DNA of 64,000 nucleotides. Origin: an uncultured Propionivibrio sp. GTDB taxonomy: Bacteria > Pseudomonadota > Gammaproteobacteria > Burkholderiales > Rhodocyclaceae. The position numbers and the translations under genes are program-made. Below, one piece after another: positions 31,626 through 46,757 of the stretch; the stretch's first letter is position 1, and each line of letters opens with the position of its first letter. The DNA lies in the NCBI RefSeq assembly GCF_963666255.1, contig NZ_OY762656.1:1798001-1862000 (forward strand), in the 5' to 3' direction. The notes beneath the pieces are model-generated. The model saw nothing but the letters and a program-made list of their open reading frames with translations. It did not search any database and had not been told where the DNA came from.

Positions 31626-31627
31626 TT

Positions 31628-32530
31628 TTATGCGCAAGCTCCAAGATCTAGGCAGCTTTGCTCATACAGACCATCCAACGCGCCAACAGCTTCATGCAGC
31701 CTGAACGGCGCTAAATGCGCATAACGTTCGGTCATCCGAATTGATGTATGGCCTAACAAATCCCGCACTTTGATTAGTTCAACTCCCTCGCTCACAAGCC
31801 AGCTTGCGAACGTATGGCGCAAGTCGTGAAAACAGAAATCAGATAGTCCGCTACGCTGTACCGCCAGCCTAAAACTATTGTCTGGATAAGAAAGGCGGCT
31901 TCCCTTGCGCGTAGAGAATACCCAAGGAGAGAACGGACAGTTCTGCTGGCGAAACAAATCACGTTGTCGCAGAACCTCCTCGGACGCATCATTCATTGGA
32001 AGATACCTCCGCTTTCCAGTTTTTGTCGTGTGCGCTTCGATTGTCAGAATGCGTCGACGAAAATCAATACTGCGAAACTGCAACTGCAACAACTCATTTT
32101 TGCGAGCGCCCGTATTCAAGGCTAGCTCGATCAAATGAGCAAGGTAGGACGAGCGAAATTTTCGAGCTTCTTGAAGAAGAATTGCAGCTTCATGCTTTTC
32201 TAAAAACCTGAGCCGGCCGGGTGCTGACGGAAAATACATGCCAGAAACGGGGTTGGGAATCTCGAACTCCCATCGTCGTCGGGCGTAGTTAATGGCAGCA
32301 GAATATGTTGCCAGTTCTATGTTGATTGATGCGGGGCTAACGCCTTGTCTCTGACGTAGTTCTGCGTATTCCGCTATGTCGCGTTTCCGAATGCTATCGA
32401 TGCTGCGGCCAGGGAAATGATGGACAAAACGACGCAGATGCCGCCGAATTTGCTCATGCGATCGAAGCCTATATTTTATGGCGGATACATATACTTCAAC
32501 GAATTCATCAATGGACGCAAGTTGATGCAT
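31628..32530 (-). CDS. Phage tyrosine recombinase (integrase)
   Basis: From ATG 32530 the protein has 300 residues. An N-terminal SAM-like core-binding domain (about 5-95) is followed by the catalytic domain with Arg143 (TGARKNELL), Lys170 (HTTKTGKRR), His235 and Arg238 (FHDLRHTFASWL), His261 (LLGHTSIRM) and nucleophile Tyr270 (ERYAHLAP). All are present, so it should be active. The frame stays open a further 483 bp upstream, but that part is Arg-rich and lacks integrase-like sequence. The stop codon lies beside attL, so this is the enzyme that should recombine the 46-bp repeats. Confidence 0.9.
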   Translation of the reverse strand: MHQLASIDEFVEVYVSAIKYRLRSHEQIRRHLRRFVHHFPGRSIDSIRKRDIAEYAELRQRQGVSPASINIELATYSAAINYARRRWEFEIPNPVSGMYFPSAPGRLRFLEKHEAAILLQEARKFRSSYLAHLIELALNTGARKNELLQLQFRSIDFRRRILTIEAHTTKTGKRRYLPMNDASEEVLRQRDLFRQQNCPFSPWVFSTRKGSRLSYPDNSFRLAVQRSGLSDFCFHDLRHTFASWLVSEGVELIKVRDLLGHTSIRMTERYAHLAPFRLHEAVGALDGLYEQSCLDLGACA

Positions 32531-33046
32531 TAATGGAGAAATGTTTTCATGTATCGGTCTAAATGATTCTACCAAAGTAATAGGTGCGAATGCCTTCGGC
32601 ACCGGGCGCTGACAGGGGTCCGCTTTCGCTCCCGTCGCTGTGCGACCGCCTTTGGCGCCCTTCTGCTCCCTTTCGCCTTCGCTCCGCTGCGCACTCCGTT
32701 TGCGAGTGCTGCGCACATGACACCGTAGCCGCGTCGCGGCAGTAAGACGCGCTATGCGCTTGTGGTTTGCGGAGACCGATACAGGTTTGCCGCATTCGTC
32801 GCCGCAATCCGTCCTAGACGATTTCATTGCCCTACGACGCCGACGTGTAACAGAGGGCAAGCGAAATTCAAGGGCCGCTCCGCTGAAATCCTCTCCCGTT
32901 CGTTTTGACCTGGTGCGATGAATCCGCTCCAGGTCAAAGCCGCTGCGGCCTCCGGTTTCTCCCTTGATTTTCGCAAGCCTGCCCCCTGTTCCTCGACGGC
33001 ACGGGCAATGCAATCAGGACGGATCACAACCACGAAAGGAGCAGCT
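32531..33046. other. Intergenic region between integrase and the parB operon
   Basis: The two genes are divergent and this 516-bp stretch should hold both promoters. It is GC-rich in its middle with open but implausible frames. No palindrome of the GTTTCGCATGCGAAAC type is present here. I see no further gene. Confidence 0.5.
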
Positions 33047-33358
33047 ATGCAAACACCGAATCAACCACAAACCACGATCAACAGCACGGAACGGGATGCA
33101 TCAGTCCAGATCGGCGTGGAAACAAAGTCAGAGCTAATCCGGCGAGGCTTGGTGATGAACGGAATGAAGGATGGCAATAGCTTTGAGACGGCAACGCATA
33201 TGGCATTCGGGGCGCTGTGCTCCTACGCCGAAATGCTGACCAGCACAGACCGTCGCTCGCGCGAATGGGCAAAGAAGGAATTACGCAAAGCGGCCAGAGA
33301 AGGTGCGGCCGTAACAAAAGATGAATTTGCCGACCTGGTCTTTAAGTCGGCTCGATGA
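33047..33358 (+). CDS. Small unknown phage protein upstream of parB
   Basis: The 103-residue product starts at ATG 33047 behind AAAGGAG. It is soluble and helical (VETKSELIRRGLVMNGMKDGNSFETATHMAFGALCSYAEML) with a basic stretch (REWAKKELRKAAREG). The position before parB is where a ParA would be expected, but there is no Walker motif. The stop overlaps an ATG of the parB frame (ATGA at 33355), so the two are coupled. Confidence 0.7.
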   Translation: MQTPNQPQTTINSTERDASVQIGVETKSELIRRGLVMNGMKDGNSFETATHMAFGALCSYAEMLTSTDRRSREWAKKELRKAAREGAAVTKDEFADLVFKSAR

Positions 33359-33384
33359 CAAACCACTATCAAGAGGAAACCACC

Positions 33385-34698
33385 ATGGAAGCCACCACGA
33401 AAGCAGTTAATCAGATCACCGATGCCGTGATCGAGCAGAACAAGGCCGAGAAAGTTTCGCATGCGAAACAAAAGGCGACGAAAAAGCCGGAAGCAGCAGC
33501 GATTGCCAAGTCAGCAGCGAAAATTGCGAAAGATCAAACCGAGAAGAAGGCGGCGAAGGCCGCGCCAAAGGCCAAAGCGCCAGCGAAAGCGAAGACGCCG
33601 GTAAAGGCCGATGCGAATGATAATCAGCAATCGCTCGACCTGGCGCCGCAGCCAGCGCCTTCAAATCTGGTAATGATGCCGCTGACGTTAATCGAGACCC
33701 ACAAGCAGGTCAGAACTGAATTCAACGAGGAGACGCTTCTAGAACTCGCCGAAGATATCGCTACTCGGGGCATGTTGCAGCCGCTTTTGCTGCGCCCTAA
33801 CCCCGGACATGTGAACTTTGTGCTAATCGCCGGAGAGCGCCGCTATCGTGCAGCAATGCTTGCGGGTCTGACGGAGGCGCCGGCCATTATCGGCGAGGTG
33901 TCGCCGGAATCTGCCAAGGCGATGCAGCTATCCGAGAATATCCAGCGCGAGGACTTGAGCCTTAAAGATCTCGCCGCAGCCGTGCGCGATAAGTACGACG
34001 AGACGGGCAGCGTCACCGAAACGGCGAAGACTATGAAGAAGTCTAAGTCATGGGTGTCCAAGCATTTGGCAGCGTCATGCCCAGATCTCCGACAGTTCGC
34101 CAAGGAAGTTTTGGAAGGTGGTTTTACCGAAGATCTCGAAATTGTGTTGATGCTCGATAAGCTGCAACCGCTCGACTGGTGTGGGTGCCGCGACCTGGCC
34201 GAGAAGATCAAGAGCGGGAATGCCGGTCGGCAAACCGTTAAGGACGCCTATGAGGCCGCAAAGGCCAAGGCAGAGGCCGATGCCGGCGAGCAGGAAGAAA
34301 GGAACAATCCAGAAGCCGTCGCGCAGCGAAAAGCCGAACAGAAACGGCAGCAGGATCTATGGGAGGCACAACAGCGGCGGAACGAGGAAGAGCGCCAGAA
34401 GAACCCGATTCACATTTGCCACATCGTCATAGAGAACTATCAGACGCCGCCAGAAGAGCAAACGGCTTTGACGTTGGCGCAGCACGACATTTTGGCGGAC
34501 CACCTTTTGTCATTCTTCGAGGAGGCTAGGAGTGCGGCCTCTGGATTCGAACACCTGCGGAAAGTGATCGATATGAAATTCAACGAGGCCAACGAACTGG
34601 AAATTGCGGCTTATGTATTCGGCACGTTCGCGGATACCTTCGACAGAGACAAAATACTTGAACAGGTCGAGCGGGTAATTGTGGAGTCGATCGCTTAG
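33385..34698 (+). CDS. parB: ParB/Spo0J-family DNA-binding CTPase-like protein, without ParA
   Basis: The start at 33385 follows an AGAGGAA site; an in-frame ATG at 33355 overlaps the previous stop. Residues about 15-75 are Lys/Ala-rich and histone-like. The ParB core follows with the CTP-binding motifs GERRYRAA (from residue 150) and ENIQRED (from 184), then an HTH (ETAKTMKKSKSWVSKHLA) and a charged coiled region (about 275-340). No parA is in the element. The palindrome GTTTCGCATGCGAAAC lies in its own codons at 33454-33469. Known ParBs load on such palindromes; here it could act in partition or, like KorB, as a repressor. Confidence 0.85.
   Translation: MEATTKAVNQITDAVIEQNKAEKVSHAKQKATKKPEAAAIAKSAAKIAKDQTEKKAAKAAPKAKAPAKAKTPVKADANDNQQSLDLAPQPAPSNLVMMPLTLIETHKQVRTEFNEETLLELAEDIATRGMLQPLLLRPNPGHVNFVLIAGERRYRAAMLAGLTEAPAIIGEVSPESAKAMQLSENIQREDLSLKDLAAAVRDKYDETGSVTETAKTMKKSKSWVSKHLAASCPDLRQFAKEVLEGGFTEDLEIVLMLDKLQPLDWCGCRDLAEKIKSGNAGRQTVKDAYEAAKAKAEADAGEQEERNNPEAVAQRKAEQKRQQDLWEAQQRRNEEERQKNPIHICHIVIENYQTPPEEQTALTLAQHDILADHLLSFFEEARSAASGFEHLRKVIDMKFNEANELEIAAYVFGTFADTFDRDKILEQVERVIVESIA
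33454..33469. repeat. parS-like palindrome 1 (inside parB)
   Basis: Perfect 16-bp palindrome GTTTCGCATGCGAAAC within the 5-prime part of parB, encoding VSHAK. The arms GTTTC/GAAAC equal those of canonical parS, whose centre is ACGT rather than GCATGC. Confidence 0.75.
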
Positions 34699-34716
34699 CC
34701 AGGGCGCGTATAAGAG

Positions 34717-34743
34717 AAAGAGCCGGGGATTCCCGGCTCTTTC
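34717..34743 (+). terminator. Intrinsic terminator after parB
   Basis: AAAGAGCCGGG and CCCGGCTCTTT form a perfect 11-bp stem with a GATT loop, ending in a short T-run 19 bp after the parB stop. Confidence 0.85.
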
Positions 34744-34846
34744 AATGTTGTGATCTGGCAACACGCCCTGTCATGGCTGCATTGTAAATGTCGCGTTTAC
34801 CTGACACGAATAATTGACAAATGCTAGTCTGAATCGCGGATGGCTT

Positions 34847-35302
34847 ATGTGGACAGGTGTCGAATTGCCCTTAAACACAGAAAACGCAGGTTCCCTATCG
34901 ACGCTTATGGCGTTGAGGACGGGGAATAAACGCATTGACGACAAACGCGCCGATTTGTTCGTGGCCTTAGAAAAACTACAAAAAGCCGTTCAGTCTGAGG
35001 GTGTTCAATCCGCTGAGTTTTCTGAAATATTCAGTCGAATCGGTCTCGATCTTGCCCGTTACATTCGGAATGAAGAATCGCTGTTTATCGATTCCGACAT
35101 GCCCGTAGATGACATTTTTAAGCATATCCGGGCACATGCTCGCATTATGGAAGAATTCACCCAGCTAAACATGGATTTGATGCAGGGAAACTTCATTGAC
35201 GGTATCACAGTGATAAACCAGGCGCGGCAATGGATATTGAATCATGTGATCAGTTATGACTTAAAACTTCGTCCGTTTATCGCGGACAAGCAAGAGCCTT
35301 GA
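34847..35302 (+). CDS. Hemerythrin-like protein with two iron-ligand positions altered
   Basis: The 151-residue helical protein aligns by eye with bacteriohemerythrins: TGNKRIDDKRADLFVALEKL, LARYIRNEESLF, IFKHIRAHARIMEEF and ARQWILNHVISYDLKL. His93, His97, His133, Asp138 and a Glu at 76 or 77 occupy ligand positions, but the first two histidines are replaced by Arg34 and Tyr72. A normal di-iron oxygen site is therefore unlikely; it may have become a scaffold or lost function. A TTG at 34814 would add 11 residues. It follows the parB terminator and is probably cargo. Confidence 0.6.
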   Translation: MWTGVELPLNTENAGSLSTLMALRTGNKRIDDKRADLFVALEKLQKAVQSEGVQSAEFSEIFSRIGLDLARYIRNEESLFIDSDMPVDDIFKHIRAHARIMEEFTQLNMDLMQGNFIDGITVINQARQWILNHVISYDLKLRPFIADKQEP

Positions 35303-35352
35303 ATATTTTGCAGAGAGCCTTCGCCTCCCCCTTTTTTGATTGCGCAAAAGAG

Positions 35353-35414
35353 CCGTGTTCGAGCAGTACAAAGCCGATAAGCGGTTTCGCATGCGAAATC
35401 AGAGGAAAACGACG
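35353..35414 (+). pseudogene. Decayed fragment of the parB 5-prime region (copy 2)
   Basis: The stretch beginning GCCGTGTTCGAGCAGTACAA matches parB around 33424-33480 (GCCGTGATCGAGCAGAACAA) through the palindrome and a little beyond, with scattered substitutions and a 2-base insertion. It is not open in the parB frame. It marks an old duplication and forms the right-hand... left border of the cargo block that ends at copy 3. Confidence 0.7.
35384..35399. repeat. parS-like palindrome 2 (15 of 16 bases)
   Basis: GTTTCGCATGCGAAAT differs from the perfect palindrome only at the last base. It sits in the decayed parB fragment although that fragment's surrounding bases have drifted further. Confidence 0.65.
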
Positions 35415-35520
35415 CCTGCAATTACTCGCGATCAGGGCGCCGCGAGCCGTTGCTTATCGATATGCCTGGAGAGTAACTGAAAATGTCGGACAACTAATGA
35501 CGATTTTTCGAAGGAATCTC

Positions 35521-36027
35521 TCAGTCCACTACCGGACGATCGATGCCGAGAATGCCCATCAACTCAACCGCCTTTGGATTGGCGAGCAATTTCCCCACAA
35601 CGGCATTCTGCAGCGTGCTGTTGTCGCCCGAGGCATGAAGCACTTTGCTGACGTAATCCTCGTGCGATTGAATCCCCTGTTCCTTCAGGGATGAAGCCCA
35701 CGCTCCGTCAAGATAACCGGCATATTCAGCGATTTCGCTGCTATGGTTTCCCCTGAACGTCTGTTTCTCCGTCATCCCGTTCCCATTGTTCAGGGCAGTG
35801 CTTGACGGCAGCAACGATGTCATCCAGTTCGGTAGCCGATAGTTTTCCAACGCATCCGTGCTGTCGTTGGCAGCGGCCTGCCGCGCTTCGGCAGAAATAG
35901 TGACGGTGGAGGTGCTAACGGATTTCTGGTCCAGGACGGTTGCCGAACTATCGATAAGAGCATTCGTTCGATTGGTGTAGCCGGCGTTGATCACGCCGGA
36001 ATACGCACTTATGGCACTAATTGACAT
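35521..36027 (-). CDS. Unknown protein (168 aa) in phage cargo
   Basis: The start ATG at 36027 follows AGAAGGA. The sequence opens MSISAISAYSGVINAGYTNR and has STSTVTISAEARQAAAND, a pattern seen in many short uncharacterised proteobacterial proteins that begin MSISAIS. No signal peptide or membrane helix is visible. It ends with LLANPKAVELMGILGIDRPVVD. No function is assigned. It is the first cargo gene beyond the copy 2 parB fragment. Confidence 0.65.
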   Translation of the reverse strand: MSISAISAYSGVINAGYTNRTNALIDSSATVLDQKSVSTSTVTISAEARQAAANDSTDALENYRLPNWMTSLLPSSTALNNGNGMTEKQTFRGNHSSEIAEYAGYLDGAWASSLKEQGIQSHEDYVSKVLHASGDNSTLQNAVVGKLLANPKAVELMGILGIDRPVVD

Positions 36028-36377
36028 TCCTTCTCCCATTCCCAAGGCAATTCGGAAAATTCCGATACCCTGCTACAGCAACAGCCATGCCATGTCAGTA
36101 AATCGAAAGGAATCCGTGAATAGCGCCCAATAGAAATGACTGTATCGGCAATAACGCCGGCAACAATTGCCGAATGGGAGAACTGCGTGGCTACAAGCAC
36201 GTCCCTCTCATCTGGCAAAAGGGCACAGATAAAAAATGTGGGGTAGTCCGTCGGCGCAGGGGCTGGGCAACTTCTGACCTGAATCGGGACTGGCCAGCGT
36301 TGAAAAGCGGACAGTCGCAAACGTTTGAATTCTCCAAGCCTGCGCGACTTTTTGCGCAGGTCCGGTGGAATGAGAAC
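36028..36377. other. Intergenic stretch in the cargo block
   Basis: No convincing gene. Near the Vat-like stop, CTGCGCAAAAAGTCGCGCAG (minus strand, around 36340-36360) can form a hairpin without a T-run. Confidence 0.4.
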
Positions 36378-37016
36378 TCAGATATCGGCGCATGCTCTCA
36401 GCGCCTCAACGTCTGCGGATACGATAACGGCCAGATGCGTTGAAATCTTTTCAATTGACCAGTTCCACCAAGCAATTTCTTCAAGCGCCAATACGATCTT
36501 CTGCGAGAAGCGTTCTTTGATTACCTTTGCTGGATTTCCTCCGACAACGGCATACGGGGGCACGTCGGCAACCACAACAGAACGCGAGGAAATGATTGCG
36601 CCATTGCCGATTTTCACGCCTGGCATAATGAGACAGTCATACCCTAACCAGACGTCGTTACCAATAACGGTATCTCCTTTGTATGGCAGATCACCGGACT
36701 GAGGCATGGCTTTTTCCCACCCGTTACCGAAAATCTGAAATGGATAAGTGGAGATGCCGGAGATTTTGTGGTTTGCGCCGTTCATGATGAACTTGACACC
36801 ACGGGCTATCGCGCAAAATTTTCCGATGACCAGACGGTCGCCGATGAACGGAAAATGATAAAGGACATTACGTTCAAAGTTCTCCGAATCTTCTGGGTCG
36901 TCATAGTAGGTGTAATCGCCAACCATGATATTCGGATTCGTAACGGTGTTCTTAATGAAACAAACTTGCGGGAAACCCACCATCGGGTGCTTTTCTTCGG
37001 GGCTCGGGCCGTTCAA
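36378..37016 (-). CDS. Vat/CatB-type xenobiotic O-acetyltransferase
   Basis: The 212-residue length equals that of Vat and CatB enzymes. The hexapeptide left-handed beta-helix is visible (IGDRLVIGKFCAIARGVKFIMNGANHKISGISTYPF, then GDTVIGNDVWLGYDCLIMPGVKIGNGAIISSRSVV), with the catalytic-type His in the GANH loop and PYAVVGGNPAKVIKERF. The family acetylates streptogramin A or chloramphenicol from acetyl-CoA, but many members have unknown substrates, so resistance is not shown. The start is TTG at 37016 behind AGGAG; an ATG 11 codons later is possible. Confidence 0.88.
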   Translation of the reverse strand: MNGPSPEEKHPMVGFPQVCFIKNTVTNPNIMVGDYTYYDDPEDSENFERNVLYHFPFIGDRLVIGKFCAIARGVKFIMNGANHKISGISTYPFQIFGNGWEKAMPQSGDLPYKGDTVIGNDVWLGYDCLIMPGVKIGNGAIISSRSVVVADVPPYAVVGGNPAKVIKERFSQKIVLALEEIAWWNWSIEKISTHLAVIVSADVEALRACADI

Positions 37017-37363
37017 GTGGGCTCCTGTTGAGATGTCTAACGACGTTTACACAGACACAGTGTGCCGTCTAACAGATGGTATTGATGACACGGAGTTTGT
37101 AGTCTCAAATTTAAGGTTCTAAGTTCTTGAATTTCAGCTGTCGGGATAGCAACGTCGATATGCCAGGCAACTGTATGCGGGCTATGTCTGCTTCGGAGAG
37201 GGGCCTGCAACAGTCTGCTTCTGACCGAACACAGATTCAAATGGTGCGCTTTGAATATATTGATGGTCAACAAGACCGAGCAGGCCGGAATCAGCCCGAA
37301 ACGGTCCTTCGCCGCACCTGTAGCCAGACAGCGGCTCGCGACCGCTGAGCGATCAACTCGCAG
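37017..37363. other. Intergenic stretch upstream of the acetyltransferase, with repeated GTTAGAC
   Basis: Read on the minus strand, GTTAGAC occurs at 37066-37072 and 37034-37040, the latter 18 bp before the acetyltransferase TTG. GTTAGAC fits the integron core consensus GTTRRRY, but no paired RYYYAAC arm was found. Otherwise no gene is seen. Confidence 0.4.
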
Positions 37364-39007
37364 TCAATCATTGGGGCCAATATCTCTCCACTCTTCCGGC
37401 ATAACGATCTTTGCGTCGATGTTGGCGTGTTCTTTTAGCAGATACAGTAGGTTACTTCCTGCCAGCAATTCAATCGGTTTGCCATTTGCGAACTCAAAGG
37501 CCGCTTTGCCGTAACCACTGGTCGTAACGAGGATGCCCTTTGACGCACCTTCGTTCTGCATGGTACCGAATAGATCTCGTACGGCGCTGACCCCGACGGT
37601 GTTCTTATACCGCTTGGCTTGGATCACCACTTTGCCGCCAAAGATCGGACGAGGATCGAAGGCTACGCAATCCACGCCACCATCCCTAGATGCCTGCGTT
37701 TGGCGAGACTCCAGCCCCATGGCCGTGAACAGGTTGGTAATCAACGACTCGAATTCGCCTGGCGTCAGGTCCATCAGGTTCGGCCTCTGATCAAGCGTGG
37801 CGAGGACCTCGCCCTCCTGGACAAAGCGCGGATCAGTCATGTTCAGTTCGAGCACAGGACGTACTGGCACCAGTTCGGCGGCGCTCTTCGAGACTGATGC
37901 GTTCAGCGACTTCAGGCAGGCAAGCGGTTCGACATTTGCCAAGTCCATGTCGTGAAATATTTCGCGCGTTGTCCGAACCGTGATGATGCAGGGCCGGATG
38001 GGCTTACCGTTGCCTCTATCGACAGTGTCCACGTATCCATTGAACACTAATGTTTCCACGTACTCGGCCGTGTCAGACGCAAAAATTTCGTGCAGTGAAC
38101 GCAGCGTCGTTTGGGCAACGGCGTCGGCGTACATCGTACGCCGCTGACTCTCTGGCCGAGCTGACTCAGTAAAAGAATCAGTGGCTTTGACGTACCTTAC
38201 TGATTTAACCGCAGGAACAATTTCGTCGTATTCCGGCAGATCATAGGCCACGATCAGCTGTTTCGACTCGGACTGATATTCAGCGTTGGCTGCTAACGGA
38301 AACCCTTCGGGATAAGGGCTACTTTCCAGAACCGTTGCAAAGTAAGAGGCGATTGCGTTCGGGTCTGCTGCATGAAACGCCGCCTCAAACCGTTCCACTT
38401 GTTGATTGTGTTCATCCGCTTCACGTTGAGCTTGCTCGACGACACGCTCATGAGCGTCGCGACGCTTCTTTACTTCAGCCTGACGTGTTGCATTTCGGGA
38501 CACGCAGGCCTGGACCTCTGCCTCAAAGCGCTGTCGCGCCAATGCCTCTTCTTCCGCGTATTTTTTCTTCACCCAGGGCAAGAGATTAAATACGCGATTG
38601 GGCTTTGTTGGAGCGTAATTACCCCAATGGGGTGGGGCTTCGATGAGCGAATGATTTCCCAAGTCCAACGGCTTGTAGGTTGGCTTGGCCCGCAGCTTCG
38701 TGAAATCGAGAACTGGATTACGTTGAATGCCGTCTGTCAGGATTCTCCCAAGCGCTTGCACATGCTCATCAAGCTCCTGGTTTTGGCCTTGCGCGTCTTC
38801 CATTTGAGATTCGACGTGAAGCCGCTTGTTTTCCTTCTCATCGGCAATCAAAGCGCGCTGATAGGCCTTTTCGGCACGCTCAGCTTCTCGGACCGCGCGA
38901 ATTTGTGCGCGTTGTTCGCTCTCACGGGCGCGCTGCGACGCACGAGCAGAGCGCTCCATCTCACGAGAAATACGGTTCAAGGTACTCACAAATCCCCGGC
39001 GAGCCAT
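37364..39007 (-). CDS. Mrr-type restriction endonuclease-like protein with long helical N-terminus
   Basis: The 547-residue protein starts at ATG 39007 behind GGGGGAG. Residues about 1-80 and 150-220 are charged coiled coil. A middle region is uncharacterised. The last 120 residues are an Mrr_cat PD-(D/E)xK domain: LTPGEFESLITNLFTAMG, then DGGVDCVAFDP as the PD part and VVIQAKRYKNTVG as the QAK part, then KGILVTTSGYGKAA. Mrr nucleases often cut modified or foreign DNA. No methyltransferase is nearby, so a type IV or abortive role is more likely than classical restriction-modification. It could protect the lysogen from other phages (inference). Confidence 0.82.
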   Translation of the reverse strand: MARRGFVSTLNRISREMERSARASQRARESEQRAQIRAVREAERAEKAYQRALIADEKENKRLHVESQMEDAQGQNQELDEHVQALGRILTDGIQRNPVLDFTKLRAKPTYKPLDLGNHSLIEAPPHWGNYAPTKPNRVFNLLPWVKKKYAEEEALARQRFEAEVQACVSRNATRQAEVKKRRDAHERVVEQAQREADEHNQQVERFEAAFHAADPNAIASYFATVLESSPYPEGFPLAANAEYQSESKQLIVAYDLPEYDEIVPAVKSVRYVKATDSFTESARPESQRRTMYADAVAQTTLRSLHEIFASDTAEYVETLVFNGYVDTVDRGNGKPIRPCIITVRTTREIFHDMDLANVEPLACLKSLNASVSKSAAELVPVRPVLELNMTDPRFVQEGEVLATLDQRPNLMDLTPGEFESLITNLFTAMGLESRQTQASRDGGVDCVAFDPRPIFGGKVVIQAKRYKNTVGVSAVRDLFGTMQNEGASKGILVTTSGYGKAAFEFANGKPIELLAGSNLLYLLKEHANIDAKIVMPEEWRDIGPND

Positions 39008-39343
39008 GCGATCTCCCCCAGTGCATTTAGTGTCCGATCTCAATCATACCGGGGATACTAGGCTCGATGCCAGCCTCTTGGCATAATTTGTCAAAAAGGC
39101 GATCTGAAATTATGTGCCGTTCGAAGCCACTCATTGCTAAGCGGAAACTATTCAGCCTATTGCCGCTTGAGACAGACAGAAGACTGAAAATCGGCTTTGG
39201 CTGGTCAGTTGGAATTAACACCCTGGCGGGTCTTATAACGAAGCAGTCATTCCGATCGAAACAAACAGCCACAAGAATGGCCGGAATTCCTTCTGGGTAT
39301 GTTTGATTTGCCTGACTTGCTTTGTCGTTCTACTCAGCCGGAA

Positions 39344-39446
39344 CCGTGATCGAGCAGAACAATGCTAAAAAAGTTTCGCATGCGAAACCAAGGTCGAACG
39401 ATGGCGAGCAATCGCGCGACCTAGCACCGCAACCTGCGCCTTCAAG
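39344..39446 (+). pseudogene. Decayed fragment of parB (copy 3), internally deleted
   Basis: CCGTGATCGAGCAGAACAA and the palindrome are followed by sequence encoding SRDLAPQPAPSS, which matches parB LDLAPQPAPSN. The Lys/Ala-rich linker that lies between these parts in intact parB is missing. The frame continues only to 39573 with unrelated residues. With copy 2 at 35.36 kb it brackets the 174-codon protein, acetyltransferase and Mrr-like genes. Confidence 0.75.
39373..39388. repeat. parS-like palindrome 3
   Basis: Perfect GTTTCGCATGCGAAAC within the decayed parB copy 3. Confidence 0.75.
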
Positions 39447-39630
39447 TAAAGATTGGAACACGCTTCTTCGGACTAAAGTCGATAGGCTCGAACGATCTTT
39501 TGCATTTCGGTCGAAAGGTTGTCGAGATTCTTGGCGACTCAGAGAGGAAAGCCTGCAGGAGTTCGAAGTGTAGAGGCACTCCCGTAGGCTCTGTTTCGGA
39601 CTATGTCGGCTGCGTTTTGCAAGCACCCGA

Positions 39631-40176
39631 TTACTGGAGTAGGGCTTTAAACTCCGGTGAGCGAACGGCTTTTGCAATCAGATTCTGCACTGCCGGGAAA
39701 TAAGCTTCGGCAGTTTGCTTGCAGGCAGTAATGGCAGAAAACCCGCTCTCGAATTCATAATGCTCAGCAACCATCTGTGTTTTGCCATTGGAGGAGTTGA
39801 GCAACACTTCAATGTCCCAGGAGCCACCAGTTAACCCCCTGCTCGACGAAAATTCGAGTTTCTTAACGTATCCGGAGAGTATGACGCGAGGGTTTGATGT
39901 TGTGTAAATTCCCGCAACTTTCAGTTCGGACTCCAATGCCTTCCGGATGTAGTCAGTGTGAGACATCCCGTCAGGTGGCGCGAGTGGGCCAGCTGCGCGG
40001 CAGGACTCGCTGAAATTAGTTGGCGCTGCGAATGCTCCTACCGACAGGCCAGTAGTGCCTAATTCCTTTAGCGCCAGATTTGTATCAGCGTTAATCGCGT
40101 ATCGTGGAGTTGTATAGGTCGAGCATGCGCTGACGGAAATTGCGAGTACAGCAAGTCCAATAATTTTGTAATTCAC
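39631..40176 (-). CDS. Predicted outer or inner membrane lipoprotein
   Basis: The 181-residue product has a short signal peptide (MNYKIIGLAVLAISVSAC) with the lipobox VSAC, so Cys18 should be lipidated. The mature part has no membrane helix. NPRVILSGYVKKLEFSSS and GGSWDIEVLLNSSNGKTQMVAEHYEF resemble generic small beta-rich lipoproteins. It is probable cargo at the boundary with the virion genes. A surface or periplasmic role such as superinfection exclusion is possible but unsupported. Confidence 0.75.
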   Translation of the reverse strand: MNYKIIGLAVLAISVSACSTYTTPRYAINADTNLALKELGTTGLSVGAFAAPTNFSESCRAAGPLAPPDGMSHTDYIRKALESELKVAGIYTTSNPRVILSGYVKKLEFSSSRGLTGGSWDIEVLLNSSNGKTQMVAEHYEFESGFSAITACKQTAEAYFPAVQNLIAKAVRSPEFKALLQ

Positions 40177-40525
40177 AAGGCCTCCCTTTGTTGATGGAAC
40201 TTTGTTGATGGAAAAATGTTGTTACCCATTTGATATTTTTACCTAATGCAAAAAACCAAAGGGTTGCTCAAATTCTATCTATATGGCAGTAATTGCGGTT
40301 ATCCTCGGCCGATCCTTGTTGTTATGCTCTACACCCGATTCAGTAACACTGCGGCCATGGATACACAGAAGCGGAATAATAGGACAAAACCATACGCCGT
40401 TTGTCATTTTTGATCAACAAAGAGCGACGCGGCTGCTGAACTGCGCGTGCGTGCGCAAGCACGGGCCCTCGGCTCGGCCGCTGACGTGTCATCCGCATAT
40501 GGCCAGACTTGAGCTCAATGAAGAT
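40177..40525. other. Gap between lipoprotein gene and zot
   Basis: AT-rich upstream part containing an exact tandem repeat of CTTTGTTGATGGAA (about 40186-40214), followed by sequence with no plausible gene. It should contain the lipoprotein promoter. Confidence 0.4.
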
Positions 40526-41833
40526 TCAGTGAGGACGTATTGACGAATTGATACGCGGGTTTGTGGAGTCGTTGCCGGTTAAGATAGAAACCGGAGGAGG
40601 TCCGTATTTGTCCTCCTGGGCAAGAATAGCCGCCCTGACTTTGACTTCCTGATCGTTGTTTTCAGGTGCCTTGGCTTGATCTTTGGGCGATTCGCCCTGT
40701 TTCCAGGCCATGAACAAGCCCTTGTCCATGATCTGCCGGCAGATCTCTTCGGTCGTTTCGTAGTGGGTGCCTTGCTGCGTAAAGCACCTGCAGCCGGTGC
40801 GCTTTGAATTCACACACCCGACAGGCTCAGGAACAACCGCCGGTTGCGTCAGAGCGTCATACGCCGGCGCCGTATGCATCAGGCCATCGATGCGCGGCTT
40901 GTATTGCGCCAGGTATTGCTCAGCCGTTACAGCAGAACGACCAGCGCCAGCTTCACCACCTGGCCCACCATAAACATAAGAACCAGCGCCACCAGGAGCC
41001 GGATTAATACGACCCTGAGAAACCTGCCCACCGGTTGCAGGAGCGGCTTTGCCACCGACCAGAGCCACCGGAGAAGGTAGAACGGAGCCACCGTTATAGA
41101 CAGCAAAACTGAGAGAACCGAGTAGAACTGCCACAAGAAATATAAGCTTCGGGTTTTTCCAGAGTGGCGTTCCGCTCTTGGTGGCCGAGAATTTTCCGGT
41201 AGCCGTTGAATCGTAGAGTTTCCAGACATAGGACGGCACCTTCTTTCTGCCGATGTTGTAGAAATTGCTCTCGGACTTGGGGTTGTCGTCGGGCGCATGA
41301 AAGCCCTCGATGTAGCGGCCACCCAGGCCAAGCAGCGCCAGATCCTTGTGCTTGTAGGCGCCGTCAGCAATGCCGCGTATGTCGTCGCGGATCTTCTTGA
41401 TATCCGGCGTCGTCAGCACCAGATCCCAGTTCCAGTGCCGGTGCTTGTCCCACGCCTGCGCCCAGTCCTTCGGGCGATTGTCGCGCAGCGCGGCATCCCG
41501 GCCCCCTGGGTAATCGAGCTTGGCGAGATCCGAATCGCGCCAGTGACGCGGCCAGATGTCCTGCGCTTCGTCGATGAACAGATAGGCACCTTCCGGCGCC
41601 CAATGAAACCACGTCCTCAATTTCTCCCGGCCTTCGTCGGTTCGATCATCGACCCAGATCACATCGAAGGAGTCGGGGAGATCTGGAAACGTCTCAAGGG
41701 TCCGTTCACGGCTGACCCCGCGAACGTTGGTCACAATGACGCGCCCGGCTTTTGCCTCTCTCAAGAAGTCATCGCCGATCGCCCCCGAGGTCTTAAAACT
41801 CCCTGGAGGTCCGTGATGAATTTTGATCGGCAT
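40526..41833 (-). CDS. zot: Zot/pI-type filamentous phage assembly ATPase
   Basis: The 435-residue protein has Walker A GPPGSFKT at residues 8-15, Walker B YLFIDEAQDIWP around 84-95, a single membrane helix (LIFLVAVLLGSLSFAVY, about 230-246) and a Gly/Pro-rich periplasmic C-terminal region ending in a Cys-containing domain (GCVNSKRTGCRCF). This is the layout of Zot and pI proteins that drive filamentous phage extrusion. It follows the DUF2523 gene with a 3-bp gap. Confidence 0.93.
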   Translation of the reverse strand: MPIKIHHGPPGSFKTSGAIGDDFLREAKAGRVIVTNVRGVSRERTLETFPDLPDSFDVIWVDDRTDEGREKLRTWFHWAPEGAYLFIDEAQDIWPRHWRDSDLAKLDYPGGRDAALRDNRPKDWAQAWDKHRHWNWDLVLTTPDIKKIRDDIRGIADGAYKHKDLALLGLGGRYIEGFHAPDDNPKSESNFYNIGRKKVPSYVWKLYDSTATGKFSATKSGTPLWKNPKLIFLVAVLLGSLSFAVYNGGSVLPSPVALVGGKAAPATGGQVSQGRINPAPGGAGSYVYGGPGGEAGAGRSAVTAEQYLAQYKPRIDGLMHTAPAYDALTQPAVVPEPVGCVNSKRTGCRCFTQQGTHYETTEEICRQIMDKGLFMAWKQGESPKDQAKAPENNDQEVKVRAAILAQEDKYGPPPVSILTGNDSTNPRINSSIRPH

Positions 41834-41836
41834 GGC

Positions 41837-42163
41837 TTACCAACCGGCCAAGGGAATGAAGCGCAGAACGAAGCGCGTGCCAAAGGCATTGACCATCATG
41901 TTGATGGCATCCGGCACCCGGAACCACATCAAGGCGTTGAGGAGTTCCGAATCGAGTTTGCCCCACGCTGCCTGGATGGCTGCACTCAGGCCGATATTGT
42001 TGATGACCTTGACCGCTACATCCCAACCGAATTTGATGCACCAGAGCATCGATTCGAGCTTCATGATCGTCAGCCATTCGACAAGCTGCGCCGTCGCCGA
42101 CGTAATCAGTTCATAGATGCCGGTCGAGAAGAACGCCGTAATCCAAGCAAAGAACTCTTGCAT
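41837..42163 (-). CDS. DUF2523-type minor coat protein (pVI-like)
   Basis: The 108-residue protein is hydrophobic with about three membrane segments (FFAWITAFFSTGIYELI; FGWDVAVKVINNIGLSAAI; FRVPDAINMMVNAFGTRFVL). DUF2523 proteins lie between the adsorption protein and Zot in many inoviruses and correspond to pVI by position. The start is ATG 42163, 4 bp after the adsorption gene. Confidence 0.85.
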   Translation of the reverse strand: MQEFFAWITAFFSTGIYELITSATAQLVEWLTIMKLESMLWCIKFGWDVAVKVINNIGLSAAIQAAWGKLDSELLNALMWFRVPDAINMMVNAFGTRFVLRFIPLAGW

Positions 42164-42167
42164 AGCA

Positions 42168-43511
42168 TCACCGGAAGATAATGACGAGCGAGGCAAACGC
42201 AGCAATCACCATGATCGCCGCAGGAATCGGGGCAAGTTTCGACTCGAAATCACGAGCACATAATTTGAAGACCGACCCGGCAACCGTCACGCCTTCTGGG
42301 CATGGCAATGCGCCTTGGCCGGTGCCGAGTTGCCCGATCAGCGTTTTGGCTTGAGCCTTGATGGTGTCCAGCTCGGCATTGAGCGCGTCCTTGGCTTCCT
42401 GGACCTTGGCGCTCTTGGATTCGAATGTGCCGGTTGTCGGATTGGTGAAACTTGCCTTCTGGCAACTGAGCGCCGTTGGGTTGTCGGCGCAGTATTTCGA
42501 TTGCTCGGTCGCACCGCTGCAAGCCGGTGCGGTCGGATTCGTCTGACAGAATCCGGCCTTGTCCTGGTTGCTGGTCGTCGTTACGACGCTTTTCGTGCCA
42601 TCGGCATTGGTCTTTGTCGTCGTCGTGGTTGTCGTGCAGGTCTCGCCGCTACAGGTCGTCGTGCTGCTATCCGACTGGCTCGCCGTGCTGGTCGTCGTGG
42701 TGTTCGAGGCGTCCGTCGTTGTGCTGGTGCTCGTACTGCTCTTGGTGCCGCTGCTGGTTACCGTTGAAGCTTCGGTACAGACGATTACGCCGTTCACCGT
42801 GCCGTAGCCTTTGCCTTGGCTGACACATTTATAGGCTGGATCGCTGGTCGACATCTGCGCGCCGGTGCTGCCGGTACACGTACTGCCAAGCGAAGCGCCC
42901 GGCGCCGTCGCCCACAGTGAGCCGGTGCCGACCGATAGCCCGGCCGTCGAATAGGTGCAGCCATTGATGCAGAGAGAAGAGGGGATCGACGCACCCGCGC
43001 CGGAATAGGTGCCGCCTAACGAGGAGGCAATAGCAGTCCCCGCTGCCGGACAAACGACCTTGCAAGATCCATCGGCTTGCCGCGTCTCGCCCGTTGCGCA
43101 ATCTGGACGGGTGCAACTTGTGCCGCTAAGGGTCCAGCCGCCCGACGTCGGGCAATAGGCAATTCCAGATCCGGCGCATTTCAGGTAAGCGCCGTTGTAG
43201 GTGCCGCCGTAATCACAAGCGTACACAGCCGCGTTGTAAGGATTTTGGCCATTCGCTAAATGACAGGTCACAATGCCGCCGGGCGGATTCGACACCCAGT
43301 CCTGACTAACGATAGTCGTCGAATAGAGAGAGGCCATCTTTTGACAGAAGGCGTCCGGCGTCGCGAAATCGCCAAGAGCGGTATGGAAATAGACGCGGGG
43401 CGTATACATGTCGGTGCTGGCCGGAATCGTTTCGGCATTGGCAACGACAAGAAAGCCCCCGAGAAGAAGGCCGACACAGAAGAACAGAAAGTTCCTGATA
43501 TGGCGGTTCAT
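42168..43511 (-). CDS. Adsorption (pIII/TspB-like) protein
   Basis: The 447-residue protein has a signal peptide (FLFFCVGLLLGGFLVVANA), a Cys-rich N-terminal region (Cys pairs from about 55 to 240), a Ser/Thr-rich linker (about 248-310, with TTTTTTTK) and a C-terminal membrane anchor (IPAAIMVIAAFASLVIIF). This matches TspB-type proteins of filamentous prophages, which occupy the pIII position. It should bind the host receptor, probably a pilus or Tol component; the specificity is unknown. Confidence 0.88.
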   Translation of the reverse strand: MNRHIRNFLFFCVGLLLGGFLVVANAETIPASTDMYTPRVYFHTALGDFATPDAFCQKMASLYSTTIVSQDWVSNPPGGIVTCHLANGQNPYNAAVYACDYGGTYNGAYLKCAGSGIAYCPTSGGWTLSGTSCTRPDCATGETRQADGSCKVVCPAAGTAIASSLGGTYSGAGASIPSSLCINGCTYSTAGLSVGTGSLWATAPGASLGSTCTGSTGAQMSTSDPAYKCVSQGKGYGTVNGVIVCTEASTVTSSGTKSSTSTSTTTDASNTTTTSTASQSDSSTTTCSGETCTTTTTTTKTNADGTKSVVTTTSNQDKAGFCQTNPTAPACSGATEQSKYCADNPTALSCQKASFTNPTTGTFESKSAKVQEAKDALNAELDTIKAQAKTLIGQLGTGQGALPCPEGVTVAGSVFKLCARDFESKLAPIPAAIMVIAAFASLVIIFR

Positions 43512-43575
43512 AGGCTGGCGGTCCGAACGCCTATGACGAAGCAGCAGCCGAACATGCAGCCCAACATCAAGCTAA

Positions 43576-43719
43576 TCATTTCAGATCCCGAACTTGGCGA
43601 ATGGTCGATTTGATGATCTGGACGATGGTGACGAGCGTCACCACCATCGATGCAATTGCCGCCACTACCGCCAGAGCGGAAGTGAGCGCAGCAGCAGCGG
43701 CAGCAATTACCTGCGGCAT
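43576..43719 (-). CDS. Small hydrophobic virion protein (47 aa)
   Basis: The frame MPQVIAAAAAALTSALAVV continues through ASMVVTLVTIVQIIKS and ends RQVRDLK. It is one membrane helix with a basic C-terminus, the shape of mature pVIII, pVII or pIX. No signal peptide is visible. The ATG at 43719 lies 2 bp after the major coat gene stop, which supports translation. Confidence 0.72.
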   Translation of the reverse strand: MPQVIAAAAAALTSALAVVAAIASMVVTLVTIVQIIKSTIRQVRDLK

Positions 43720-43721
43720 GG

Positions 43722-44006
43722 TCAGAGCTTCTTGACCATGGCGATGACGAGGCCGACGACGACCAGGGCCGCGACCGCCGCAACGACATAACCGCCGACC
43801 GTAAGGCCGCTGGCTTGTGCCGCCTCGATACCGCTCTTTGCCGCCGTTTCCATGGTGCTGCTCGTGGTCTGCGCCATGGACGAACCGGACGCGACAACCG
43901 TCCCAGTGCCAATGGCCACTTCGGCCGATTTCTGGCGCAGGAATTCACCCGCTTGAGCAGCCTTTTCCTTTGCGACGCGACGTGCATTTTTCAACATTTG
44001 AAGCAT
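43722..44006 (-). CDS. Major coat protein (pVIII-like) precursor
   Basis: The 94-residue precursor has a long basic leader and a cleavage-type site near SGSSMA. The predicted mature part, about 50 residues (QTTSSTMETAAKSGIEAAQA then GGYVVAAVAALVVVGLVIA), ends in MVKKL. An acidic/amphipathic N-terminus, a central hydrophobic helix and a basic tail are the hallmark of filamentous phage major coat proteins. The exact cleavage site is uncertain. Confidence 0.85.
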   Translation of the reverse strand: MLQMLKNARRVAKEKAAQAGEFLRQKSAEVAIGTGTVVASGSSMAQTTSSTMETAAKSGIEAAQASGLTVGGYVVAAVAALVVVGLVIAMVKKL

Positions 44007-44023
44007 GACGATCTCCTTAAAGG

Positions 44024-44311
44024 TTAATTACGGGTCTTGCGAATCATGGAGATCACCAGCCCGACCCCTAGGCCAGTTCCCCAACAACTGACAGCGCCAA
44101 GAAATCCAACCTTCATTAGCTCGCTGTCGTATGTCCATGTGTCCTGCTTGAATTCAGTTTGAGAGGCGACAATCTGCTGATCTGCCGAACTGCACGGCGG
44201 ATTGGCGGGATACCCCGTCACCCATGTCGACGCCCCGACCTGGTAGACGCAGACCGCTGCATTGACCGGTACGGCAACCAGGAAGAGCAGGGCGATCAGA
44301 AGCGCTTTCAC
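44024..44311 (-). CDS. Small exported membrane protein of the virion operon (95 aa)
   Basis: A signal peptide (MKALLIALLFLVAVPVNAA) is followed by a short periplasmic segment with two cysteines and a second hydrophobic helix (FLGAVSCWGTGLGVGLVISMI) ending in RKTRN. Proteins of this shape lie between the ssDNA-binding and coat genes of other inoviruses. A minor coat or assembly role is likely. The start overlaps the previous stop by 4 bp. Confidence 0.75.
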   Translation of the reverse strand: MKALLIALLFLVAVPVNAAVCVYQVGASTWVTGYPANPPCSSADQQIVASQTEFKQDTWTYDSELMKVGFLGAVSCWGTGLGVGLVISMIRKTRN

Positions 44312-44505
44312 CGGTCGAACTCCTCGAAGAAGGTGTGAATCTCGTAATCCCGCTCAAGATTCAGCCGACCGGTTTCGTGCGCGCATTCAACATCCGGGGC
44401 GCGTCCGGCATGCTTGAGAGAGCGCACCAGACACAAATCCAGATTCAGGAATAACCCCGTGGATTTTTGCTGCACAACCCAAACGCGACGGACGTCCTTG
44501 AACAT
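44308..44505 (-). CDS. Small phage protein (65 aa), unknown
   Basis: MFKDVRRVWVVQQKSTGLFL and NLERDYEIHTFFEEFDR give a soluble protein. It starts 3 bp after the ssDNA-binding gene and overlaps the next by 4 bp, so it is part of the operon. Similar small ORFs of inoviruses have no assigned role. Confidence 0.65.
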   Translation of the reverse strand: MFKDVRRVWVVQQKSTGLFLNLDLCLVRSLKHAGRAPDVECAHETGRLNLERDYEIHTFFEEFDR

Positions 44506-44508
44506 GGC

Positions 44509-44811
44509 TTACGCCTTGGCCTGCGCTTGCTGTTGCGACGGACCCTTCGCACGGAACGCCAGGCATTCCGGGCCTTTCGTCGTCAGTTCAAGATCGAGTT
44601 CGGCCATCACCGGGAACGGGAGATTCTTGAGCTTCTGGAATTCCTCTTCCTTGCCGAACTTGATGTTCGCGGCATTGAAGCCGGCTTCGGTGCCGGCCTT
44701 CTCCGACACATCCATCACGACGTAGAGGGTCGTGCTGTCGAAATGCTGCCCGTCGATGTCGCCCTTGAAGCCCTTGCAGCCGAGAACTTGAAACGTGCCT
44801 GAGACTTTCAT
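44509..44811 (-). CDS. Phage single-stranded DNA-binding protein (pV-like)
   Basis: The 100-residue product begins MKVSGTFQVLGCKGFKGDID and is a small beta-rich protein with an Ala/Gln tail (KGPSQQQAQAKA). Size and place between Rep and the coat genes fit the gpV-type ssDNA-binding protein that coats phage DNA before export. The ATG at 44811 follows AGGAG; the longer TTG frame starting at 44853 runs through the palindrome and is rejected. Confidence 0.75.
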   Translation of the reverse strand: MKVSGTFQVLGCKGFKGDIDGQHFDSTTLYVVMDVSEKAGTEAGFNAANIKFGKEEEFQKLKNLPFPVMAELDLELTTKGPECLAFRAKGPSQQQAQAKA

Positions 44812-44831
44812 TTCACTACTCCTGTAAAAGT

Positions 44832-44847
44832 GTTTCGCATGCGAAAC
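44832..44847. repeat. parS-like palindrome 4, in the leader of the ssDNA-binding gene
   Basis: GTTTCGCATGCGAAAC ends 21 bp before the ssDNA-binding ATG, between it and rep. With flanking bases it reads TGTTTC-GCATGC-GAAACA, so the six-base arms equal those of canonical parS (TGTTTC-ACGT-GAAACA). The position suits an operator for the virion operon. Confidence 0.75.
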
Positions 44848-44878
44848 ATTCAAAAATGCCCATTGCAGATGTGCTCAG

Positions 44879-46123
44879 TTAGGCAAATGCCGCCTGGAAG
44901 AACATTTCCGCGTCGGGCTGAATCCGCTGTTGCTCATGGAACGACTCACCTGCAAAGCGCCAGTCGGGAACCTTTAAGCGCGAAGGAATCTCGCCTTCAC
45001 GAATGATTTTTGCGATGGCAAGGTCGGTCGTCCCTTCCATTGCCACCAATACGTTGATTGCCGCGCCACACTGGCGCTTGAGCCATGCGACCATCGCCGC
45101 ATACGTGATTTCTGTTTTTTTCTTCGTCGTCAGAATTCGCTCCTGACGCTCGTTGATCCAGGCAAAGGCCGGATAGGACGCCGCGAGATATTCACCAGGG
45201 CGAAGCAGGGCATCGAAGGGAATAATCCGATTGACGGATTTCATTTCCACTTCGACCCGCACCCATTCGCTGGCCTTGTCGCCTAACTGGCGACCCTTCT
45301 CATAGACCCGGCAGAATTTTCCGTTGTCGCGATTGCCGATGTAGAGGGTCCGGCCTTTGCCGGTCGGCTGCTTCCAGTTGCCGCGATATTCGTGATTGGG
45401 ATTGCGACCGCCACAGTTGAACAGGCCGGCATCGAAGTCGGCATCGGCCCGGTCGACGCTGTAGCGAACGCCGTCATACACGTCGTGGGCAAGATCGAGG
45501 CGAGTAATACGCGCCCGTGCGCCGCACTTGTTTTCAAGGAAGTCATGCAGCCGGGCTTCCCATCCTTCACGGGCGGCAGCGCAGCCTTCACCGGAGAGCA
45601 TGACGAGAACCGTGGATTTCTGGCCACCATGGCAGACCATGCCGTACTTGTCGCCGAGAACGTACGAGCAGTGATAGAAGTTCGCGCCGGTCGGTCTTTC
45701 AGCGGTAATGCCGAACCCGAAAATCTCTTGGCATTTTTTTGAAATGCGGTGAATGATTTCGTCATCGCTGATGCACTGATAGCCGAAGAAGAAATCGGTT
45801 TCATCCGTCGTGAAGTTCATCCAGTCGATGAAGGCATGGTCGCCACCGTAGCCACGCCGGGCCGGAATTTCTTTAACCTGGCCATCTTCGAGAACCAACC
45901 GAGCCCCGATTTCGGACTTTCCCCCCCTGTTAGTAGAGGGGGGACGGGCGGCGGCTGACGCTTGCTCCGCTTCGCGCTCCGCCGCTAACGCCGCCGCCTT
46001 GCTGTTGGCAAGACGCTCGTTAGCTTCTTGTATCGACTGGCGGACGCTTTCGGAGATCTGCGCAAGCTCTTGGGCTGAAACGCGCCCAACATCGAGGGAC
46101 ATGGCCTCTGCCGGACGCTTCAT
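44879..46123 (-). CDS. Phage replication initiation protein (Rep)
   Basis: The 414-residue protein has a helical N-terminus (about 1-70) and a Rep_trans-like core: TRLDLAHDVYDGVRYSVD, GRTLYIGNRDNGKFCRVYEKGRQLGD and EWVRVEVEMKSVNRIIPFDALL. Such proteins nick the phage origin for rolling-circle replication; the catalytic tyrosine is probably in RVYEKG. The start overlaps the small upstream gene by 4 bp. A GC hairpin lies within its N-terminal codons. Confidence 0.88.
   Translation of the reverse strand: MKRPAEAMSLDVGRVSAQELAQISESVRQSIQEANERLANSKAAALAAEREAEQASAAARPPSTNRGGKSEIGARLVLEDGQVKEIPARRGYGGDHAFIDWMNFTTDETDFFFGYQCISDDEIIHRISKKCQEIFGFGITAERPTGANFYHCSYVLGDKYGMVCHGGQKSTVLVMLSGEGCAAAREGWEARLHDFLENKCGARARITRLDLAHDVYDGVRYSVDRADADFDAGLFNCGGRNPNHEYRGNWKQPTGKGRTLYIGNRDNGKFCRVYEKGRQLGDKASEWVRVEVEMKSVNRIIPFDALLRPGEYLAASYPAFAWINERQERILTTKKKTEITYAAMVAWLKRQCGAAINVLVAMEGTTDLAIAKIIREGEIPSRLKVPDWRFAGESFHEQQRIQPDAEMFFQAAFA
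45922..45943. other. GC hairpin inside rep
   Basis: CCCCCCT and AGGGGGG pair around the loop GTTAGTAG. This is a strong isolated secondary structure in the low-complexity N-terminal coding part of rep. In several single-stranded DNA phages the origin lies in the rep gene, so it is a candidate origin element, without direct proof. Confidence 0.35.
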
Positions 46124-46317
46124 TTCTCAGCCCCTACATAGAAGAGGCAATACCGGTCAGCTTCGGAATTGACCATCTTGTCGGTTCGGGGGCAGTCACG
46201 CAGTTCGGGGAATGCGCGAATAGGTGTGCCGACAGCGCAGGACTTGCATTTAACGGTCGGCAAGCGATCGCGGAGGGCGCTCTCTCGCCTGAAAACGTCA
46301 CCGATGTGGTTAAGCAT
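46120..46317 (-). CDS. Small Cys-containing phage protein upstream of rep (65 aa)
   Basis: From ATG 46317 the product is MLNHIGDVFRRESALRDRLP followed by TVKCKSCAVGTPI, ELRDCPRTDK and DRYCLFYVGAEK. Four cysteines in a CxxC-x(n)-C-x(n)-C pattern suggest a possible metal-binding fold. It overlaps rep by 4 bp. The function is unknown. Confidence 0.6.
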   Translation of the reverse strand: MLNHIGDVFRRESALRDRLPTVKCKSCAVGTPIRAFPELRDCPRTDKMVNSEADRYCLFYVGAEK

Positions 46318-46693: not shown

Positions 46694-46757
46694 TGAACAC
46701 TTCTCGAAAACAAACTTGCTTACCCATAAGCAGATGGCTAAGATTCGATCCGTGAAC

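Follow-up and report, generated by a model that had tools for sequence, protein, structure and literature searches.

Several described systems pair a ParB-type DNA-binding protein with a dedicated site: KorB-OB of plasmid RK2, a long-range silencer that acts through cytidine triphosphate (CTP)-dependent clamps, the chromosomal ParABS (Spo0J-parS) systems, and the chromosomal Noc-NBS system, which acts on division. Orphan ParBs with the ParB fold and without a ParA-binding motif are also described on prophages, in the accessible part of PMC12704722. Here, we report the analysis of a 64,000-nucleotide (nt) stretch of DNA (hereafter, the window) from an uncultured Propionivibrio sp. (contig NZ_OY762656.1, positions 1,798,001 to 1,862,000 of the forward strand), which contains an integrated inovirus (filamentous phage) element that encodes a ParB and carries parS-like palindromes. 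We consider it probable that this element belongs to a betaproteobacterial filamentous-phage lineage that has an orphan ParB together with a parS-like operator of its own, in which ParB clamps would regulate phage DNA without ParA.

The inovirus system shares with KorB-OB the ParB fold, the CTP-hydrolyzing (CTPase) motifs and the presence of several palindromic operators dispersed over a small mobile element, but it resides in a phage rather than a plasmid, no ParA was found, its operator differs from what we take to be the KorB operator, and repression is hypothetical here; no KorA was identified either, the small gene family and the divergent regulator described below not having been compared with KorA. 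With chromosomal ParABS, it shares the ParB_N and helix-turn-helix (HTH) domains, the TTTC..GAAA arms and the presence of sites next to parB, whereas no ParA or ParA-binding motif was found, the recognition helix differs, and the arms lie two base pairs (bp) further apart. Noc, as portrayed in the accessible part of its literature, is likewise an orphan ParB that lacks the ParA-binding motif and has its own variant site, whose positions 1 and 6 differ from those of parS, as they do in the inovirus motif; the letters of canonical parS and of NBS are those that we presume to be standard. Unlike Noc, the inovirus ParB is phage-borne, and the spacer of its site differs. The prophage ParBs mentioned above resemble the inovirus protein in lacking the ParA-binding motif. 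Among filamentous phages, the Pf-type inoviruses (Pf1 and its kin) are comparable through the assembly ATPase, the window Zot being 49% identical over 61% of its length.

The ParB gene and the four sites of the window are as follows.
33385..34698, plus strand: parB, 437 amino acids (aa); PF02195, E 3e-21; TIGR00180, E 1.9e-29
33454..33469: parS-like site 1, exact; inside parB, where it reads VSHAK (residues 24-28)
35384..35399: parS-like site 2, one mismatch; within a degenerate parB 5' copy
39373..39388: parS-like site 3, exact; within a truncated parB 5' copy
44832..44847: parS-like site 4, exact; at the rep-ssb junction, within an 18-bp palindrome

The sequence-only reading, made from the letters of the window, gave these positions and mismatch counts for the 16-mer GTTTCGCATGCGAAAC, and our scan bears them out: the motif is exact at 33454, 39373 and 44832 and has one mismatch at 35384, and no further match with up to three mismatches was detected in the window. 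Shuffled windows contained 0.65 such matches on average, and none of 100 shuffles reached four. At 44831-44848, the palindrome extends to 18 bp (TGTTTCGCATGCGAAACA). The same reading proposed to ask whether the palindrome is common on the host chromosome, which it is not: the whole host genome holds three exact copies, all in the window, its one-mismatch copies are 35384 and C1:488337, and the reversed motif, used as a control, yielded no match in the genome.

Three of the four sites have a common origin. Positions 39344-39397 are 87% identical to the parB 5' segment 33425-33478, and a weaker copy of the parB 5' end, with a 2-nt shift, starts at 35353. Because 33454, 35384 and 39373 thus lie in parB or in its degenerate 5' copies, the four sites are not independent events, and the window holds about two independent sites, one of the parB type (an intact copy and two relics) and the one at 44832. 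The positions given earlier for four palindromes hold, but as independent sites they are an overcount. For the last site, the claimed adjacency to the single-stranded DNA (ssDNA)-binding gene also stands, with a gap of 20 rather than 21 bp and with a gene label that is positional. A further copy lies on another host contig (C1:488289-488484, locus L194), which is 91% identical to window positions 39326-39520 over 195 bp; this copy comprises the parB 5' end with the site and is located close behind a LysR-like open reading frame (ORF), as judged by eye.

We searched 395 genomes of the family with ParB, the exact 16-mer and zot, the gene for the pI-like assembly ATPase. The ParB search detected one relative at 73% identity followed by a series at 33-48%; among loci L006-L017, the palindrome is exact in 7 of 12 and has one mismatch in two more. 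The exact 16-mer was found in 12 of the 395 genomes (reversed control, 0 of 395), and 10 of these 12 are among the 13 that match ParB best. Outside the genome of origin, the exact 16-mer is missing from all 398 genomes of the order that were sampled, which include 12 of the same family. Zot is present in 54 of the 395 family genomes (64 rows that correspond to 62 genes, two being split), and a ParB of the inovirus clade is encoded within 8 kilobases (kb) of 12 of the 62 zot genes. The contig carries the exact 16-mer for 10 of these 12 zot genes and for none of the other 50 (Fisher test, 6e-10, relatedness ignored), a comparison that covers the exact 16-mer only and in which ParB-less status relies on the ParB matches listed, with distant ParBs possible. 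Of the two exceptions among the 12, genome G386 has a one-mismatch 16-mer and genome G228 has none. Two isolated exact sites, in genome G225 (within an EngB-like GTPase ORF, by eye) and at G106:C15, had no zot or parB by profile in the fetched stretches and were set aside as probably fortuitous. The site in genome G231, 515 bp away from the end of its contig and accompanied by an integrase within the same 10 kb, may belong to a cut prophage.

Across 31 loci that encode both ParB and Zot (duplicate element records with matching coordinates and scores dropped; at most 21 kb each, some host flank included), there are 33 exact 16-mers, 55 matches with up to one mismatch and 74 with up to two; the loci found by the 16-mer itself, in the IMG/VR search, bias these counts upward, and those found by ParB do not. 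In a k-mer count over 27 of the 31 loci, with the close kin L086, L088, L089 and L121 left out, the 14-mer TTTCGCATGCGAAA is present in 24 and ranks first among all 14-mers, followed, as the next unrelated k-mers, by codons of ENIQR, the motif that had led to many of the loci. The general form of the motif, TTTCGCNNGCGAAA (TTTCGC-NN-GCGAAA), accounts for 78 sites in 29 of the 31 loci, with 0.1 expected in first-order random sequences. The center is AT in 65 of the 78 sites, and locus L101 has other centers within the same arms. Chance origin of the sites was set aside on the basis of the host-genome, order-wide and expected-count scans. Among 26 ParB loci without Zot (L105-L110, L131-L150), sites with up to two mismatches are confined to L137 and L138; in these two loci, which come from Pseudomonas, the site has two mismatches (L137:11117 and L138:11117) and is located close to where a related ParB ends. 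A single-protein ParB scan of viral contigs confirmed no relative, whereas alignment-based scans did find relatives.

The best evidence that ParB reads the motif comes from covariation. Caulobacter ParB contacts parS through R173 and N178, residue 173 reading position 1, and parS and NBS differ at positions 1 and 6, according to the accessible part of PMC7383237. With residues mapped by eye to the Caulobacter numbering, columns 175 and 178 are W and K in 30 of 30 inovirus ParBs and A and N in 9 of 9 presumed chromosomal ParBs of the same family, and column 173 varies among the inovirus ParBs. The covariation set was made up of all 31 loci except L103, and sites are present in 28 of these 30. 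Where residue 173 is R, all 16 half-sites have G at position 1; where it is K, 54 of 70 do (A in 13, T in 3), and where it is S, V, P or A, 26 of 68 do, with C in 20 of these 68. For K and R pooled against the others, G is found in 70 of 86 versus 26 of 68 half-sites, and C in 0 of 86 versus 20 of 68. None of 20,000 shuffles of the residue-class labels among the 28 loci reached the observed difference, a test that does not remove shared ancestry. Non-basic residues at column 173 arose in several separate branches, by our reading of the tree. Residue 173 had been named by the literature beforehand, and the covariation was computed after the alignment was seen. Since the base at position 1 covaries with the residue presumed to read it, ParB is very probably the reader of the motif.

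The alternative that some other phage or host protein reads the palindrome, with ParB merely traveling along, seems to us quite improbable: besides the covariation, it has to contend with the lack of the exact site on the contigs of all 50 zot genes without a clade ParB. What speaks for it is the location of some sites and the existence of ParB-less phages that carry them. The divergent regulator encoded opposite rep remains a candidate reader because, in 4 of the 31 loci (L079, L075, L097 and L119), a site lies in its ORF or within 137 bp of it; the window has no site between this regulator and rep, an argument by which we set the regulator aside, weakly. The ParB-less inoviruses carry sites after ssb or the coat gene and after zot. 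In IMG/VR, 27 contigs contain the exact 16-mer, 21 of them with inovirus genes by profile, 7 of which also encode ParB; the 14 inovirus records with an exact site and without PF02195 may be fragments. Two of the ParB-less genomes carry two sites each and have terminal repeats, of 127 bp in L053/L170 and of 125 bp in L074, as in circular genomes. Near relatives of another ParB-less group (L153-L169) have no site, and L055 carries four exact copies within 1.2 kb with no ParB found. The contigs with an exact or one-mismatch site and no ParB, by PF02195 or by profile, are these.
L053/L170, L074, L057, L061, L171-L175, L178
L059, L062, L065, L067, L073, L056
L054, L055, L063, L076

These phages may depend on a ParB that acts in trans, may have lost their own ParB, or may have another reader. 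An extension of the first possibility, to which we give little credence, is that the ParB of a resident prophage loads onto its own sites and also onto those of incoming or co-resident ParB-less inoviruses, such that one CTP clamp would silence, tame or carry several phages without ParA.

The placement of the sites suggests what is conserved. In 26 of the 31 loci, a site is found in the stop-to-stop frame of parB or at most 10 bp from it, at varying places and in varying frames, its position falling in the tail at the N-terminus, in the linker or at the C-terminal end of the protein. It reads VSHAK in most loci and FACE at the end of the L075 ParB; in L097, L098, L118, L119 and L121, it reads FRMR and is located at the probable ParB start or ahead of it. 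In the window, the residues encoded by site 1 mark the start of the predicted disordered tail. The other recurrent places are the rep-ssb junction (in L079 and L060, the same junction as that of window site 44832), the DNA that immediately follows ssb or the small gene after it, and the end of zot or the region beyond. That the letters are conserved although place and frame vary suggests that selection acts on the DNA. A separate observation is that, in L097, L098, L119, L121 and L075, parB follows a shared ORF of about 100 aa on the same strand (ssb-like by eye), and the junction of the two genes holds a site in four of these five loci; the window parB adjoins the integrase instead.

A perfect palindrome could also form a hairpin in ssDNA or RNA and serve as a packaging signal, a minus origin or a terminator. 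The outermost pair is complementary in 42 of the 78 sites (shuffle mean, 33), it is compensated in L054, and the site at 39373 is terminator-like on the minus strand. However, the outer base is unpaired in the remaining 36 sites, sites also occur inside the parB and zot frames, and the exact letters, beyond what pairing would demand, recur with ParBs only 25-67% identical to that of the window, all of which makes this explanation highly improbable. On the minus strand, 39372-39389 comprises the palindrome followed by a T-run and receives a terminator-like score; a terminator role was rejected, as 39373 is the only window site that scores. The sequence GTTTCGCAT may resemble the XerC box consensus, a possibility that was set aside.

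The window ParB has the domains of its family. A structural model (predicted local distance difference test, pLDDT, 83; predicted template modeling score, pTM, 0.47) comprises a helix, a disordered tail at residues ~26-90, ParB_N, the HTH and a helical C-terminal part; Foldseek matches it to ParB, KorB, Noc and the KorB-KorA complex 8qa9, and the ParB profile matches Spo0J/ParB, Noc and KorB in the Protein Data Bank (PDB). The CTPase motifs that the sequence-only reading recognized as GERR and ENIQR are present as GERRYRA (box II) and ENIQRED (box III), so that ParB_N with both boxes and the HTH, the features of ParB/CTPase-fold DNA-binding proteins, occur together, and from these motifs we predict CTP binding and clamp closure.

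The ParB partner ATPase appears to be missing. The ParA-binding motif, with the pattern taken from the accessible part of PMC12704722, was found in none of the 31 ParBs, the L103 ParB lacking its N-terminus, and a motif scan (not a profile search) detected no KGGxGK[ST] ORF in the 31 loci; the lack of ParA claimed earlier is thus corroborated, at the level of motifs, for the window locus and 30 relatives. As a whole, the earlier picture of a filamentous prophage whose ParB lacks a ParA and has parS-like sites to itself gains from the 31 loci, the order-wide rarity of the 16-mer and the covariation, and loses its overcount of four sites. The silencing of virion genes by ParB spreading, which the sequence-only reading also raised, stays hypothetical, and that reading had not foreseen the ParB-less inoviruses that carry sites. 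The near-canonical parS sites of the host are located elsewhere, at C2:963772 and 967488, so that phage and host sites differ.

The principal rival is that ParB and its sites segregate or stabilize the episomal replicative form, via host ParA, another host ATPase or passive tethering. ParB with centromere-like sites makes a classic set for partition, ParA and ParB are encoded by phages with a plasmid lifestyle (as stated in the accessible part of PMC4533152), and L080 has an additional, canonical-type parS in the small ORF before parB (CGTTTCACGTGAAACA, L080:9198-9213). We nevertheless regard partition as unlikely, given that the motif scan found no ParA-binding motif in the 31 ParBs (one of them N-terminally cut) and no KGGxGK[ST] ORF in the 31 loci, and given the integrated state of the element with its own integrase, and the restriction of canonical-type parS to this 1 of the 31 loci.

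We favor regulation by ParB clamps. By analogy with the family, a ParB dimer would bind the site, close with CTP and slide onto neighboring phage DNA; by elimination, because neither ParA nor a ParA-binding motif was found, the resulting coat of clamps would act without ParA. The clamps would most likely damp or time transcription of the replication and virion operons, in the prophage and in the replicative form, in a KorB-like manner, rather than move DNA. Several observations weigh against this interpretation, in addition to the sites near the divergent regulator and those in ParB-less phages, including the two with terminal repeats. KorB without KorA represses only weakly, as reported in the accessible part of PMC11790492. 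No promoter-like match was found at the sites in a promoter scan of the window, which was uninformative, with 4 matches found versus 9.8 in shuffles. The closest relative (L078, 73%, near a contig end) has a single site, outside parB, and L081 and L104, both with parB and zot, have no TTTCGCNNGCGAAA. In the tree, the 30 inovirus ParBs group with two others, and the support of this node, 93/95, is below the program's mark.

The element itself is delimited by direct repeats of 55 nt that are 85% identical (31575-31629 and 47146-47200). In the relative G277, the left flank, up to window position 31629, meets the right flank, from 47148, with 54 bp in common, as expected of an empty site, and together with the repeats this gives an element of about 15.6 kb.
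31575..47200: integrated inovirus element, between 55-nt direct repeats, upstream of rpsP
31628..33013, minus strand: tyrosine integrase; PF00589, E 4.5e-33; phrog_1
33047..33358, plus strand: small gene immediately upstream of parB, 103 aa; candidate partner of ParB
40526..41833, minus strand: zot, pI-like assembly ATPase; PF05707, E 1.1e-46
41837..42205, minus strand: DUF2523 protein; PF10734, E 1.2e-12
42168..43511, minus strand: probable adsorption protein, labeled by position; phrog_4352 and phrog_815 (function unknown)
43722..44006, minus strand: probable coat protein; phrog_2145 'major head protein', E 2.2e-7
44509..44811, minus strand: putative ssDNA-binding protein (ssb), labeled by position; sole match phrog_4994 (function unknown), E 5.1e-18
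44879..46123, minus strand: replication initiation protein (Rep); PF02486, E 5.8e-31; phrog_453
46716..47189, plus strand: probable transcription regulator, divergent from rep; phrog_638, E 1.4e-4

The inovirus gene set is present together: a pI/Zot ATPase, a rolling-circle-type Rep, a DUF2523 protein and a small coat-like protein. Between parB and a relic of its 5' end, the stretch 34814-39043 carries cargo, namely, hemerythrin-like, acetyltransferase-like and Mrr-type restriction endonuclease genes as well as a lipoprotein-like ORF (by eye).

The small gene before parB is a candidate for a ParB partner. The longer ORF that includes it (32918-33358) has no match in Pfam, NCBIfam or PHROG, and matches to a profile of the small gene adjoin parB, in the same orientation, in 8 of the 31 loci, the window and seven others; four of these seven were seeds picked for adjacency, and L080, L084 and L113 were found by the profile. 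The gene precedes parB in the window and follows it in the seven other loci, all on the parB strand.
L080:10739-11005; L082:8901-9170; L084:7845-8093; L060:5968-6189
L079:8728-8916; L113:10945-11283; L095:8259-8570

A comparison of the window ParB with 50 matched phage records named no Pf or other inovirus among the 30 matches listed, many of which are unannotated. The main text of PMC12704722 contains none of the terms 'filamentous', 'inovir' and 'zot', and no inovirus-type site was noticed in the accessible part of that paper; the term 'ParB' does not appear in the main text of the inovirus survey PMC6813254. Neither the 16-mer nor the 14-mer was found printed in the literature searched, a body that excludes most subscription papers and all bioRxiv preprints, and the matches listed for inovirus or filamentous phage with ParB or parS, and for orphan or ParA-less ParB, include no account of such a system.

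If the proposed reading is correct, single-stranded DNA phages would possess a dedicated ParB-operator pair, with an operator of new geometry in which parS-like arms are placed two bp further apart. The lineage would then amount to a natural experiment in ParB-DNA recognition and would offer a small, ParA-free system for asking what spreading ParB clamps do besides partition. The system may be relevant to the control of chronic virion release by filamentous prophages, and its site may make such inoviruses easier to recognize in sequence data.

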